From positions 248,001 through 312,000 of the forward strand of contig JAQGEQ010000048.1 in assembly GCA_034620365.1 (NCBI GenBank): a DNA stretch of 64,000 bases, given 5' to 3'. Source of the stretch: Pegea sp. RAD2-039 (Eukaryota > Chordata > Thaliacea > Salpida > Salpidae). A program made the translations under genes and the position numbers. Each line of letters begins with the position of its first letter. The stretch's first letter is position 1. Shown piece after piece: positions 8,166-59,717 of this stretch. The notes below the pieces were generated by a model. The model was not told where the DNA came from. It made no database searches and saw only the letters and a program-made list of their open reading frames with translations.

Positions 8166-11100
8166 TTATTTGCGGAGACGGTTGGTTCGACGTTGAGCCT
8201 TCCGTACCGGCCTTCCTTTAACTTGGTCAACAATGCCCAAATTAAAACAGCTGTTTTGAGCACCTGAGTTGTCAGCAGAGATTCTGTTAAGATGAAAATG
8301 TTAGAAATTGTTTGAATGTTGAGGGTCACTCACCCAAACCCTGATTGATTGTTGTTTGTTGCTTGACCAAATTTAAAAGGTTCTTTTGCCATATTAGTGG
8401 AAGTGAAATTGAACCCTGATGAATCTAAATGAAAGAAGAGTCAGTAAAGAGTCAGATGAAGATCGGGACTTACTGGTTTTATCGTTAAAGTTTGTTCCTT
8501 CAGATGAAGAGAAGTTGAACCCTGAAACTGAAATGACGATAAATGACATGCGATTGGTCGATAACAAACCATTTTCACCTTGTGACGTGTTCTGATTGGT
8601 TGGTTTTGATGCACTGAATTGGAAACCCGAAGACGACGCAGAGTTATTAAAAGTATTTGAAGTTTCAGCAAATTTGAAGCCCGAGTTTGTAGGATTTTTA
8701 AAAGTTGAGCTACTAGCAGTAGATGAACTATTAAACAAGCCAGTAACTGGTTTGAATGGTGCCGGGTTGGACGCTGATTGCTTGCTGAAAATATCTCTAG
8801 AGGAAGATTCAGCTTTAGGATCGCCAAAGATACTTTGAGAGGCTGCTGGTTTGTTTGCAAAAACACTTCCACCAAGAGGCTTCCAGGCAGTCTCTTTGTT
8901 TGTTGAGTTATTACCAGCACCAAATATACCAGAAGACTGGTTAGAAAACATTGGAGGGTTAGGGTTGCCAAATAGGCTGGTAGAGGGTGCTGCAAACAGT
9001 TTACTAGAATCTGTTTCAGGTTGCTTTGATGGGTTTGTTATACTGAAAGGTTTCGCTTCAGAATTACTTTGAAATGTGTTCGTTGCTGATGAAGCAGAAA
9101 ACATCGAGTTTGAAGCAGCTGGGGGGGTCGATGCAGAAAACATAAAACCACTAGCCGAAGTGGTAGATGGTTGAGATGGTTTAGAAAACATAAAACCACC
9201 AGCAGAAGTGGTCTGTGGTTGAGATGGTTTAGAAAACATAAAGCCACTAGCAGAAGTGGTCTGTGGTTGAGATGGTTTAGAAAACATAAAGCCACTAGCA
9301 GAAGTGGTTTGTGGTTGAGATGGTTTGGAAAAGAAACCACCAGCAGAAGTGGTTTCTGGTTGAGATGGTTTGGAAAAGAAGCCACCAGCAGAAGTGGTTT
9401 CTGGTTGAGATGGTTTGGAAAAGAAGCCACCAGCAGAAGTGGTTTGTGGTTGAGATGGTTTGGAAAAAAAAACACCAGCAGAAGTGGTTTGTGGTTGAGA
9501 TGGTTTACTAAGGAAGCCACCAGCAGAAGTGGTTTCTGGTTGAGATGGTTTGGAAAAGAAACCACCAGCAGAAGTGGTTTGTGGTTGAGATGGTTTGGTA
9601 AGGAAGCCACCAGCAGAAGTGGTTTCTGGTTGAGATGGTTTGGTAAGGAAACCACCAGTAGAAGTGTTTGCTGGTTGGAAGTTAAGAGATTTATTTGATG
9701 AAAACATTGATGATGCAGCTGATGACGTCACAGGCTTCTGGCCAAAATTGAAACCAGCAGGCTTGCTGGAAGACGACGATGAAGTGAAGTTAAAGCCACT
9801 GGTGGATGCTGGTTGATTTGAAGCTGGTTCTGCTGGTTTTGATGCAAACACAAAACCTTTTTCAGTACTTTTGGGTGCTGAACTAGAAAGTTCGGACGGT
9901 TTCTGGGTGGCTGGTTGAGAAACACCAGTTGTTTCTGAAGTAGAAGTAGTAGCTACAACAAAATAAATGATATTTGATGTTGATTGGCTGAAACAGTAAC
10001 CAACCTGGTGCTGCTGTGGGTTCAGAAGTCGTAGTAGATGGTTTTGAAAGAACGGACATGACAGATTCATGTGAAAGAGCTGGTTTAGATGTTTCAGTAC
10101 TAACTGTAGATTGCACACCAAATTTGAAACCTAAAAATGGTTTGTGGCGTGAAAATTGTTTGAAAACACACGTGGTAACTTTAGCAAATCACCTGCTTTA
10201 GTGGTTGTTGCTGGTGTTTCAGTTGGTTTGATGCCAAATTCAACTGGTTTATTGCTACTAGTGATTCCAAAAGAGAAGCCTGTAACAATCAAAAACACCA
10301 GCTGAACCACTTACACCAGTTAGTAGCCGAACAAACAAATAAAGGATAGAGAAGAAAGACCATCTTCAAAGAAACCATAAAAACTATTTCTTTTGCACCT
10401 CACTGTGTTTTTAACACCCTCACTCGAAAGCACATCCAGCATGGTCGAAGCAGATCTCTACTATTAACCAGCAAAAGACCAGACTCTTTAACTCCGTCTT
10501 GTGGTTGGTTTTAGTCACGTGATGAGAAGAGTTTACAAAAACCACAAGAAGTTCAAATTACCTGTTGACTTTGGTTTAGAATCATCTGAACTTGATTTAA
10601 CTCCAAATTGAATAGCTGATAAAGGTGTGGCGGTTTGTTTGTTGCTTTCAACTGATTTTAGAGGAGCTCCTAAATATAAAAAAGTCATTAAATTTCAGTA
10701 GGAAGTTGAAGCAGTAATCAAAATACCAAAAGTGCCGGTGAATGCCGAAGGTTTGCTGGTTGCTGCTGCGTCTGCATCATAAGTAGAGATTACAAAAGAA
10801 GAAAAGATTGCGTTTGTGTGAAACAAGGACTTACTGGAAGTATTTGCAGTAGATGTAGTTGATGAGAATGTAAAATCCAGAGAGGGTTTGCTACTTTCAG
10901 CTGCCTTCTCACTACTTGCAACTTGTTTGGTGGTGTCTTGCTTTTTCGTATCAACTTTCAGGATAGAAGATGAAGTATACTCAAAACTCTTATCTCCGAA
11001 TGTCACTTGCTTGTTTGCTTCTAAATCCAATCAAGGATGAAAACATGTGAAGATTGATGAGTTGTTGAGCTTACCAGGGTTGGGGGTTTCACATGCGATA

Positions 11101-23119: not shown

Positions 23120-23125
23120 TTTATT
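23120..23125 (-). terminator. Polyadenylation signal of the coiled-coil gene
   Basis: TTTATT on the plus strand is AATAAA on the minus strand, 115 nt after the stop codon at 23240. Confidence 0.5.
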
Positions 23126-23239: not shown

Positions 23240-24550
23240 CTAGATTGTCAAAACTTTCATAACATCAAGTATAACAGCTTCATGATGATTACGGAAATCT
23301 TGGATGTTATGAAAATTCCTTTTTCTGTGTTCATCACATTCTTGCTGCAAACGGCGCAAATCACGATAAAATTTGTCTCCAAATTCTTTGAGAGGATCAA
23401 ACTCATCTGCCTCATCAGAGATTTGAGCAGGTAGCAACTGGGAAAGACGAGCTTCATTTCGTGTAAAAGTTTCAAGAAAGTTTTTAAGTGTATTATCAGA
23501 TTGTCTTTGCTTCATCAAAATCCAAGCATCATGAATCTCCTGCATCGGACCAACTACCATCTTCTTCAGATTACTTTCGCACTCTTTATAAGCATCACGA
23601 ACAGCTGAGAGTAATGAATTGATGTAGTGAATCTGCTGGTAGTTCATTTGTCGGCAACTTGCCACTTCTTCACTAATAGCTGAAACTTCTAACTTACTGA
23701 TATTCATCAAATATGAATGAGCCTTACACATATTCCTCATCATCACCTTCGCTTTACTCACTTGCTTTTCACCACTAAAAGTTTTCTCAATTATTTTATC
23801 AGGATCAAATAATCCGAAAGATTTGGGTTTCTTCACAACTTTCCATGGAGCATTTGGATGCAGTAATGAAAAATTAAGTAGATTTTCGCAGCAATCTTCT
23901 AACTGTTTGTTGCACTGATCTGCAATTGATGAGATTCGTTTGAAAGTTGGGGAAAGAAGAAAGTTTTCAGAACACTCTGTCTTGCTACAAGTTGATTTGA
24001 GGCTTGTTTGTAACTTCAGCAGCTGTTTGCGCAATTTATTCAAATCTTCTTCTAATTGAGCAACTTTTTCCAAGTTTAGAGATTTCAAATTTGAGTTACA
24101 AACATCTAAACAAGTCAGAGGGGTCTTTGAGAAAGCTGGTAGTGGAGCTAGCGGGACTTCTAGTCCTTCGCCACCATGACTTAGATCTTGATGTTTTCTC
24201 AATGAGCCTTGCAACTTACGCAAAGTCTGGACCCGTTTGGCCACCTCAGATCGTGGTATCGTGACGTCAGAACCAGCTGGGGTACGAAGAAGTAAATTTT
24301 GGAAGAATTGAGTCATTCGAACTATTTCAGCTTCGCTATCGACTACAGATGACGCGCGATGTGACAGTGACTTCTGTAGTAGTGAACATTGACGTTCAAG
24401 CTGAAATATCTGACATTTCATCGCGAAAGACCTTCGATGGTCGAAATTCTCCTTCTCCGCGTAAAGTTGTTGAAATTGAGCTGCAAGTTCATCGTGGGGG
24501 GCTACCTGCTTGCTACTTGCTGGTTTCTTGGATGATTTTAAGCGGTCCAT
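23240..24550 (-). CDS. Intronless coiled-coil protein overlapping ZNHIT1
   Basis: An uninterrupted frame of 436 codons from ATG 24550 (context GAAATGG, a strong start) to TAG at 23240. I do not recognise the family. It is rich in Leu, Glu, Lys and Arg heptads (LEEDLNKLRKQLLKLQ; FYRDLRRLQQECDEHRKR) with little membrane character, so a mostly helical coiled-coil protein is likely. A central non-coiled block (HPNAPWKVVKKPKSFGLFD) may be a binding motif. Its ATG lies 13 nt inside the end of ZNHIT1 in another frame. The same frame stays open upstream through the whole last ZNHIT1 exon, so a longer N-terminus is formally possible. Absence of introns contrasts with the ZNHIT1, FLAD1 and ARMH3 neighbours. 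Confidence 0.85.
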   Translation of the reverse strand: MDRLKSSKKPASSKQVAPHDELAAQFQQLYAEKENFDHRRSFAMKCQIFQLERQCSLLQKSLSHRASSVVDSEAEIVRMTQFFQNLLLRTPAGSDVTIPRSEVAKRVQTLRKLQGSLRKHQDLSHGGEGLEVPLAPLPAFSKTPLTCLDVCNSNLKSLNLEKVAQLEEDLNKLRKQLLKLQTSLKSTCSKTECSENFLLSPTFKRISSIADQCNKQLEDCCENLLNFSLLHPNAPWKVVKKPKSFGLFDPDKIIEKTFSGEKQVSKAKVMMRNMCKAHSYLMNISKLEVSAISEEVASCRQMNYQQIHYINSLLSAVRDAYKECESNLKKMVVGPMQEIHDAWILMKQRQSDNTLKNFLETFTRNEARLSQLLPAQISDEADEFDPLKEFGDKFYRDLRRLQQECDEHRKRNFHNIQDFRNHHEAVILDVMKVLTI

Positions 24551-25219
24551 TTCAAGCAGCGAGTCTCGCGATGAAGATTCAAACAAGGGATTGAGCAAGA
24601 GAAAGCGCCACAAGCGATGCAAGTGTACTTGGAGTAGTAACCACAAACTAAACAAAATTTGCGAGGTGGAAGCCTGTGAAGGTAGATGGTGAAAGAGTCG
24701 AGTTTGGATGGAGTTTTGGTGTTTACTTAGATGGAGGAACTACGGCAGTGAAGTAACTTGGTCCTTGCTTGCTGCCGATTCGTTGACGTTCTTCGTCTAA
24801 AAGTTGATTGAAAGTTTTTCGGAATCTGGTTTTGAAGTGATCTCCTCGAAAACGCTTCTTCTTTTTTTTTGATGAAGACTGAAATAAAGTTGAAAGTTGG
24901 ATTTGATCCTTGGATAAATTTAACTCACCAAAGTTGGGGAGTTTGAATGATCCTTTTGAGGAGATTCTGCTAGAAGCAAACGAGGACCCTTCTTCTTCGG
25001 TGAGTCTGAACTTTCAAAAGGATCTTTCTGTAGATGAAAATATTTCAATCAACAAACTAAAAGAAGCTGATCACTAACCTGGTGGTTATCTTCTTCTAAA
25101 GACTCTAATTTTCGATTGAGCAATCTCTTTCGTGTAGCACTATCAAGGACTCTACGCCGACCAGACTCCTGTAATCTGCTGGATTCTCTTCTTACAGTAG
25201 TTTCACTTGCCGGAGCCAT
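24538..25219 (-). CDS. ZNHIT1: ZNHIT1 (HIT-type zinc finger, SRCAP/SWR1 complex subunit)
   Basis: Four exons, 25079-25219, 24929-25027, 24727-24878 and 24538-24673, give 175 aa (human 154). Family blocks: GRRRVLDSATRKRLLNRKLE at the N-terminus; KKKKRFRGDHFKTRFRK; LLDEE; GPSYFTA; and the C-terminal HIT finger CLVCGYYSKYTCIACG, then C-x3-C-x3-H-x4-C, ending RCLKWTA. All zinc ligands are present. ZNHIT1 is a subunit of the SRCAP/SWR1 remodeller that deposits histone H2A.Z. The middle exon (KDPFESSDSPKKKG and following) is longer and more polar than in mammals. The FLAD1 stop lies 229 nt upstream on the same strand, and the next gene overlaps the last 13 nt. Confidence 0.95.
24674..24676 (-). promoter_or_regulatory. 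Splice acceptor that could serve two genes
   Basis: CAG before ZNHIT1 exon 4. Downstream of it on the minus strand there is no ATG until 24550, the start of the coiled-coil protein. An alternative leader, or a trans-spliced leader, joined here would make that ATG the first one in the message. Confidence 0.4.
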
Positions 25220-25448
25220 GGATGTCAAAATGACACAAGAATATTTGTTGGTAATTAAATTACAACTAAAACCGAAAACTGAAAGATAAATTACCTGAAA
25301 TACAGATAAGTTTTTTCACCAGTTACAAAAGGAAGTTATTGATAAAAGGAAATATGATTATATTCAAAAAATAATTTATCAGCAAAAGCGAGTAATATAG
25401 TTCAAAAGACATAAAACATCTAGAAATATTTTAATCAGTCTATTTCTT
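25220..25448 (-). promoter_or_regulatory. Short intercistronic spacer FLAD1-ZNHIT1
   Basis: 229 nt only. Holds an ATTAAA shortly after the FLAD1 stop and an acceptor-like run (TCTGTATTTCAG, ending at 25295) 75 nt before the ZNHIT1 ATG. This would suit a trans-splicing acceptor in an operon, or a leader intron; neither can be decided from sequence. Confidence 0.35.
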
Positions 25449-53731: not shown

Positions 53732-54793
53732 ATGAGTTGCAATGATTTTCATCAACTAAATCAATATATACCACCAACTTGGACCAAAACTCTCACTTTT
53801 ATACCAACTCATAGAGTCAAATTGTCGATGACTCCTACTCCTATTCATAAATGGAATATTCCTTGTTTACCTGAAGACATGGAGCTCTACATCAAATGAG
53901 ATGATCTTACTGGACACACTTTGAGTGGATGCAAAGTTAGAAAGTTAGAGTTTCAACTTGCAGAAGCTTTAAAATCAGGATGTAAGTCTGTGATTACATG
54001 TGGTCCTATACAGTCCAACCACTGTAGAACAACATCTGTAGCTGCTAGTGAACTAGGACTAGAATGTCATCTACTCTTAAAATCTGACAACAAAATTGAA
54101 ATGCTTGATAAGCATCCTGGTAATGTATTGCTAGATGTTTTTAGTGGAAGTAAAATATATATTATTCCTCTAAATACTGAACCTGCGAAAGTTTTTGAAA
54201 AACAAAAGGATTTAGCAATTCATTTACAAGAAACAACAGGACATAAGATTTGGGAGATAGCTGTTGGAGGTTCAGATCTATACGGTCTGTATGGATATAT
54301 AGAAGCTTTTAAAGAAATGATTGAACAAAATGTTCTTGAAAACTTTGATGATGTTGTTATCACTTCTTGTTCTGGTGGTTCAGCAGCAGGCTTAGCAATA
54401 GCAAATCATCTTACTGGTAGTAAAGTCAAGTTACATACTATATCTACTGCTAATAATTCAGTTTCGATGACTAAACATATCAAAGAAATGTTTGATTGTG
54501 TTGGATTAGATCACCTGCCATTCGAAGATATGATTGATATTATTGATGGATATCAATATCCAGGATATAGTAAAACAACTAGTACAGATCAAGAACAAAT
54601 TGCTGACTTAATGTCTAAAACTGGAATATTTTGTGATCCAGTTTACACTTGGAAGGGTTTGAAAGGTACAATTAGAGAATTTAAAAGAAACAGAAATAGA
54701 TTCAAAGAAAACGAATTCTTTTCATTCATACTGCAGCTACTTTTTCTCTTTATGATTCAAAATGCAGGAAATGTTTTTTACAAACTTAAATGA
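53732..54793 (+). pseudogene. D-cysteine desulfhydrase-like (PLP-dependent) copy 1, internal TGA and late frameshift
   Basis: Intronless frame starting MSCNDFHQLNQY at 53732. Blocks of the D-cysteine desulfhydrase/ACC-deaminase family: FIPTHRVKLSMTPTPIHKWN, DDLTGHTLSGCKVRKLEF (the second Lys region holds the PLP lysine), GPIQSNHCR, SCSGGSAAGLA (phosphate loop), DPVYTWKGLKG. Codon 56 (53897-53899) is TGA at the Arg of the conserved K-R-D-D motif. Near 54705 one base is missing relative to copy 2, changing the last 25 residues or so. About 98-99% identical to copy 2 over the coding region only. The enzyme breaks D-cysteine to H2S, pyruvate and ammonia. Whether this copy is translated is doubtful. 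Confidence 0.8.
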
Positions 54794-58628: not shown

Positions 58629-59717
58629 ATGAGTTGCAATGATTTTCATCAATTAAATCAATATGTACCACCAACTTGGACCAAAACTCTCACTTTTATA
58701 CCAACTCATAGAGTCAAATTGTCAATGACTCCTACTCCTATTCATAAATGGAATATTCCTTGTTTACCTGAAGACATGGAGCTCTACATCAAATGAGATG
58801 ATCTTACTGGACACACTTTGAGTGGATGCAAAGTTAGAAAGTTAGAGTTTCAACTTGCAGAAGCTTTAAAATCAGGATGTAAGTCTGTGATTACATGTGG
58901 TCCTATACAGTCCAACCACTGTAGAACAACAGCTGTAGCTGCTAGTGAACTAGGACTAGAATGTCATCTACTCTTAAAATCTGACAACAAAATTGAAATG
59001 CTTGATAAGCATCCTGGTAATGTATTACTAGATGTTTTTAATGGAAGTAAAATATATATTATTCCTCTAAATACTGAACCTGCGAAAGTTTTTGAAAAAC
59101 AAAAGGATTTAGCAATTCATTTACAAGAAACAACAGGACATAAGATTTGGGAGATAGCTGTTGGAGGTTCAGATCTATACGGTCTGTATGGATATATAGA
59201 AGCTTTTAAAGAAATGATTGAACAAAATGTTCTTGAAAACTTTGATGATGTTGTTATCACTTCTTGTTCTGGTGGTTCAGCAGCAGGCTTAGCAATAGCA
59301 AATCATCTTACTGGTAGTAAAGTCAAGTTACATACTATATCTACTGCTAATAATTCAGTTTCGATGACTAAACATATCAAAGAAATGTTTGATTGTGTTG
59401 GATTAGATCACCTGCCAGTCGAAGATATGATTGATATTATTGATGGATATCAATATCCAGGATATAGTAAAACAACTAGTACAGATCAAGAACAAATTAC
59501 TGACTTAATGTCTAAAACTGGAATATTTTGTGATCCAGTTTACACTTGGAAGGGTTTGAAAGGTACAATTGGAGAATTTAAAAGAAACAGAAAAAGATTC
59601 AAAGGAAAACGGATTCTTTTCATTCATACTGCAGCTACTTTTTCTCTTTATGATTTTAAAATGCAGGAAATGTTTTCTGATAAGTTTGAAAAGCAAGTTT
59701 GTTTTCTAACAAATTAA
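58629..59717 (+). CDS. D-cysteine desulfhydrase-like (PLP-dependent) copy 2, internal TGA
   Basis: Same family blocks as copy 1 and full family length: 362 codons including one TGA at codon 56 (58794-58796), the same conserved Arg position as in copy 1. Apart from that codon the frame is open through RILFIHTAATFSLYD, the usual C-terminal block (LFIHTGG.F.LYD), to TAA at 59715-59717. No intron. Compared with copy 1 I count about a dozen base changes, more than half changing the protein (for example Thr-Ala, Ser-Asn, Phe-Val, Arg-Gly), which suggests weak constraint. It could be a pseudogene, or the TGA could be bypassed. The family is best known from plants and bacteria but also occurs in some invertebrates, so origin by transfer cannot be judged here. 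Confidence 0.7.

Follow-up and report, generated by a model that had tools for sequence, protein, structure and literature searches.

The closest described counterparts of the gene pair analyzed here come from flies and green algae. In Drosophila, the stoned and Snapin loci contain AUG-deficient first cistrons, and their second cistrons are described, with experimental support, as being reached by leaky scanning (Wall et al. 2005, as cited in PMC11892635). The bicistronic loci of green algae, as presented in the citing report itself (PNAS 2025, PMC11892635), combine weak start contexts of ORF 1 with few AUGs upstream of ORF 2. At a larger scale, FlyBase was reported to hold 159 dicistronic pairs, as well as 18 gene pairs whose shared coding sequence is read in different frames, mostly with an overlap of less than 40 nt; for fly loci with polycistronic transcripts only, the stop-to-start distance was given as −34 to 319 nt, and the same source describes the requirements of a scanning mechanism as unmet by most of the fly dicistronic pairs (PMC4528330). 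A literature search combining ZNHIT1 with bicistronic expression yielded a single report, in which Drosophila Dmp18, a ZNHIT1 homologue, is described as bicistronic with Tfb5 (PMC9514664).

A pair of genes of this kind was found on the minus strand of the window (i.e., the whole stretch of 64,000 nucleotides that was analyzed). The first of them consists of four exons with an in-frame translation of 175 aa, and we take it to be ZNHIT1 (Swc6), in agreement with the Pfam match of its zf-HIT domain. Exon 1 (25079..25219) starts with ATG 25219 and is followed by exon 2 (24929..25027), exon 3 (24727..24878), which ends in TAA, and exon 4 (24538..24673). The last of these begins behind a CAG 3' splice acceptor (24674..24676), the one named in the earlier note, and carries the C-terminal zf-HIT zinc finger (PF04438, E-value of 9.1e-09, 35.4 bits vs. 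the cut-off of 24.7), as well as the stop codon TAA (24540-24538). Besides this locus, the zf-HIT domain was found at three further places in the assembly. In the 5' leader of ZNHIT1 there are two tandem acceptor-like TTTCAG sites, placed 16 nt apart (25279..25300), which would fit an outron as well as an intron in the 5' UTR. The same strand carries, further upstream, a gene with a PAPS reductase domain in one exon, which by our own reading is FLAD1-like.

The second gene is an intronless ORF of 436 codons (23240..24550), with its ATG at 24550 and its stop codon ending at 23240. Its coding sequence overlaps that of ZNHIT1 by 13 nt (24538..24550) in a different frame, and in this respect our coordinates and translations agree with those proposed previously, i.e., the end of ZNHIT1 at 24538 and a 436-codon minus-strand ORF starting from ATG 24550. 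It should be stressed that the second ATG is formed within AAA TGG, the codons of a Lys-Trp pair located near the C-terminus of ZNHIT1 and presumably conserved also in human ZNHIT1. The DNA spanning both ORFs (2,061 bases) has one match in the 105.7-Mb assembly of 387 contigs. The earlier note regarded such a compact layout as unusual for an animal gene pair, which is overstated in the light of the FlyBase counts given above (PMC4528330).

The second ORF is not a chance open frame and behaves like a coding sequence, since its own frame is interrupted by nothing but the terminal stop, against 34 and 44 stops in the two alternative frames, and the base composition differs among its three codon positions. 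The encoded protein has one match in the assembly. Its comparison with Pfam gave five weak rows and that with NCBIfam two, all of them under the respective cut-offs; no match was obtained in PDB and no relative among the viral contigs. The AlphaFold model, built from the single sequence, is all helical, with a low-confidence pLDDT of 45.

The use of Rfam over the whole window gave no match. Sequences of 18S, 5.8S, and part of 28S rRNA were found, whereas COX1 gave no match. The cuticle-protein domain PF00379 was not detected either, which is a hint against an arthropod, although the 14 control genomes were equally empty. Elsewhere in the window, two ORFs for PLP-dependent enzymes (PF00291), presumably D-cysteine desulfhydrase-like, are located in direct orientation on the plus strand (53900-54793 and 58797-59717), and their DNA is 98.7% identical over 1,054 aligned nt, which indicates a recent tandem duplication. 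Another ORF, on the minus strand (8394-10130), contains near-identical repeats arranged in tandem, together with a sub-threshold FG-nucleoporin match (27.2 bits vs. 32.2); we read it as NUP214-like.

The feature that distinguishes the ZNHIT1 locus is the lack of ATG, in any frame and in exons and introns alike, between the start codons at 25219 and 24550 (a stretch of 666 nt, 24551..25216). In the spliced ZNHIT1 coding sequence, ATGs are present only at offsets 0 (its own) and 515 (that of the second ORF). It had been noted before that no other ATG lies between the exon 4 acceptor and 24550; indeed, no other was found in 24739-24500, and the ATG-free run proved to be longer, reaching up to 25219. 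The G+C content of this stretch (0.41) and of the second ORF (0.39) contrasts with the lower value for the window (0.296); across the window and seven further pieces of the assembly it ranged from 0.24 to 0.36, with higher values in two pieces bearing rDNA. Such a base composition would suit monogonont rotifers (G+C of 24.95-31.14%, PMC11954553) but is no proof of them.

Measured between the start codons, the gap spans 669 nt, and none of the 2,010 genomic ATG gaps counted on the two strands of the window is longer. It ranks second, after one of 814 nt, among the 8,465 gaps of a 272-kb sample in which the window was combined with an adjoining piece of 8 kb and twenty pieces of 10 kb (the other loci fetched from the assembly were left out). 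Moreover, of the 17 mechanically called ORFs with 150 or more codons in this sample (all with putative starts), the second ORF has the longest ATG-free run before its first ATG (669 nt); the next values were 293 and 285, and the median was 38. When the ZNHIT1 protein was kept fixed and its codons were exchanged for synonymous ones under five codon-usage nulls (20,000 recodings each), 2.7-3.1 ATGs were expected, compared with no internal ATG observed, and the fraction of recodings without an internal ATG was 0.6%, 1.0%, 1.6%, 2.2%, and 2.3%, respectively. Dinucleotide shuffling of the genomic stretch gave 4.65 expected ATGs, with none in 0.4% of 4,000 shuffles. The ZNHIT1 protein has no internal methionine, and therefore the lack of ATGs partly follows from the protein itself. 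As all of these tests were devised post hoc, after the feature had been seen, we consider them as evidence of moderate weight.

The same stretch bears on the possibility that a promoter inside the ZNHIT1 gene body drives a separate, monocistronic mRNA of the second ORF. We rank this as the strongest rival explanation, albeit an unlikely one, because the ATG-free sequence would then serve as a 5' leader, and exons and introns are equally devoid of ATG ahead of the second start, as a leader should be. However, the ATG-freeness extends exactly to the start codon of ZNHIT1, which is beyond the need of a short leader, and that of the introns taken alone arises by chance in 28% of cases and is thus uninformative.

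The two start codons also differ in their surroundings. The ATG of ZNHIT1 (ACATCCATGG) has T at −3 and G at +4, whereas that of the second ORF (CTTGAAATGG) has G at both positions, in accordance with the strong context previously ascribed to ATG 24550. The first context is therefore the weaker one at −3 (T vs. G), with the reservation that the host's own consensus may differ; among the other first ATGs listed, which are putative starts, a purine at −3 was present in 8 of 11. The G at +4 of the second start is fixed, since it is supplied by the Trp codon of ZNHIT1.

We propose, with about an even chance of being right, that a single cis-spliced mRNA carries both ZNHIT1 and the 436-aa ORF as its cistrons and that the latter is read by leaky scanning. 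The majority of ribosomes would initiate at the ZNHIT1 AUG, placed in a sub-optimal context, while those scanning past it would travel along about 512 nt of the spliced message without encountering a further AUG and would initiate at the stronger AUG 24550, giving rise to the second protein. As the second ORF is intronless, there is no exon junction 3' of the ZNHIT1 stop codon, and the bicistronic mRNA would be spared junction-dependent decay. A common message, the translation of its second cistron in this way, and its escape from decay are what we infer for this locus. Against leaky scanning it may be said that the ZNHIT1 ATG has G at +4, and thus its context is not the weakest, and that the 814-nt ATG gap in the 272-kb sample has no such cause known to us.

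The distribution of poly(A)-signal-like sequences is consistent with a common message. Within 25500-22950, AATAAA occurs downstream of the ZNHIT1 start only at 24040, i.e., inside the second ORF, and at 23125 (23120..23125), 3' of it; there is none between 25219 and 24550, and hence no AATAAA signal of the first gene ahead of the second ORF. This suggests that the ZNHIT1 message probably carries the second ORF, in whole or in part.

On such a message, the second start would lie only 10 nt upstream of the ZNHIT1 stop, and ribosomes terminating there might also slip back over this distance and restart at AUG 24550. That no competing AUGs occur close to the stop fits such reinitiation in part, as is conceded in the algal paper (PMC11892635); nevertheless, reinitiation after long ORFs is presumed in a review to be very rare (PMC5972666), the viral-type TGGGA motif is absent from 24700-24480, and the RNA fold predicted at 24500-24620 is not unusual (z = 0.59). 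We regard this mechanism as very improbable.

Comparison with the described systems places the leaky-scanning reading in context. With stoned and Snapin the ZNHIT1 pair shares a first cistron poor in internal AUGs and a first start that departs from the consensus, features that are linked there to leaky scanning of the second cistron (PMC11892635). It differs from them in the 13-nt overlap, with the second AUG placed inside ZNHIT1 codons, and in being known from sequence alone. The algal loci are likewise similar, with two close ORFs in different frames, few AUGs before ORF 2, and a weak context of ORF 1; however, in vivo tests of a synthetic locus and of two endogenous ones were reported for them, whereas our reading of the ZNHIT1 locus is drawn from its DNA (PMC11892635). 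In the case of Dmp18, the likeness consists in ZNHIT1 sharing one transcript with another gene, but the fly partner is Tfb5 and not a counterpart of the 436-aa ORF (PMC9514664). In its sequence features, the ZNHIT1 locus conforms to a leaky-scanning bicistron, and it is probably a further case of a kind already known, with leaky scanning as the presumed mechanism.

According to the earlier note, one acceptor might serve two leaders, giving ZNHIT1 by cis-splicing and the second protein by the joining of an alternative first exon or a spliced leader at 24673. This part of the proposal stands as a possibility: there is a splice acceptor (24676-24674) upstream of the second ORF, the exon begins 123 nt before its ATG, and the interval from 24673 to 24550 contains no stop in the second frame. 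An AUG at the end of a leader would therefore be in frame and would add an N-terminal extension of 41 aa, hydrophobic by eye. Such a leader is, on the other hand, not needed, since with an AUG-free ZNHIT1 coding sequence the scanning ribosomes can reach the second AUG on an ordinary cis-spliced mRNA. In parasitic flatworms, common acceptors are reported to be used in cis- and trans-splicing, and a study of the flatworm leader, with its 3' AUG as the initiator methionine, is named in the reference list of the same paper (PMC12582326). The spliced leader-resolved operons described there resemble the ZNHIT1 locus in that neighboring genes lie close together on one strand and the second ORF is preceded by a 3' acceptor (PMC12582326), but no spliced leader was found in the genome studied here with two bdelloid-derived patterns. 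The lineages with trans-splicing include rotifers (PMC12460157), and bdelloids are said to possess a spliced leader (PMC1925144).

The two patterns were a bdelloid leader with up to two mismatches and its 11-nt core followed by a consensus donor; neither was found, with the reservation that both were derived from bdelloids and may not be those of the host. The core itself is present within the 5S spacer, which may be counted in favor of a leader. More precisely, a cluster on contig C1 (1385410-1386691) contains four 5S genes with spacings of 430, 365, and 368 bases, and two copies of the spacer (1387-1397 and 1755-1765 of the 5S piece) include the 11-nt GCTTATTACAA, which presumably matches the bdelloid spliced-leader exon; it is not followed by a consensus donor and its occurrence is perhaps due to chance. 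Of the five 5S loci, two, comprising four genes, were searched with Rfam at E-values of up to 0.1, and 5S alone was detected. An EST study of Brachionus also reported no leader, although its authors allow for a small trans-spliced subset (PMC1925144). These negative results carry little weight. The joining of another leader to the exon 4 acceptor seems to us decidedly unlikely as the source of the second mRNA.

The frame of the second ORF remains open across the whole of exon 4, and its closest upstream in-frame stop in the spliced mRNA is the terminal TAA of exon 3. Only 5.5% of own-codon shuffles kept this frame open, which is better explained by a leader AUG or by a fusion of the two proteins, as leaky scanning does not require the openness. 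A fusion might arise by alternative cis-splicing to a candidate acceptor AG at 24648..24649 (TTTTGTTTAG), which by frame arithmetic would let the reading frame of ZNHIT1 exon 3 continue into the second ORF, so that the N-terminal part of ZNHIT1 would be joined to the 436-aa ORF and the zinc finger lost. The site resembles TAG acceptors, which end four of the six introns of the adjacent FLAD1-like gene (marked by eye), and the open second frame in exon 4 agrees with such splicing; still, T-rich codons can yield an acceptor-like site by chance and the second ORF already has a well-placed ATG of its own, hence we find this fusion most improbable. In a broader formulation, one 3' acceptor region would provide two proteins, with cis-splicing giving ZNHIT1, and either an AUG-ended leader or a 26-nt shift to AG 24648 giving the second frame; exon 4 would then be dual-coding and the second protein would gain the N-terminal extension or the N-terminal part of ZNHIT1. 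We hold this to be improbable as well, to the same degree as the shared acceptor alone.

A fusion by −1 frameshifting was also considered and rejected. Slippery heptamers for such a shift were found in the ZNHIT1 frame at just two places, both within the A run of exon 3, and this possibility is excluded because the shifted frame meets a stop formed by the final three bases of that exon.

If the leaky-scanning reading is correct, the ZNHIT1 locus would extend the AUG-depleted, leaky-scanning bicistron beyond the fly and green algae, and would provide an example in which the start of the second cistron is embedded in a Lys-Trp codon pair of ZNHIT1. ZNHIT1 would then be bicistronic in two lineages, with different partners, and coupled expression with a chromatin-exchange subunit would become a testable idea. 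It would also be a warning for gene predictors, as an intronless ORF that directly follows a terminal exon may lack a promoter of its own.
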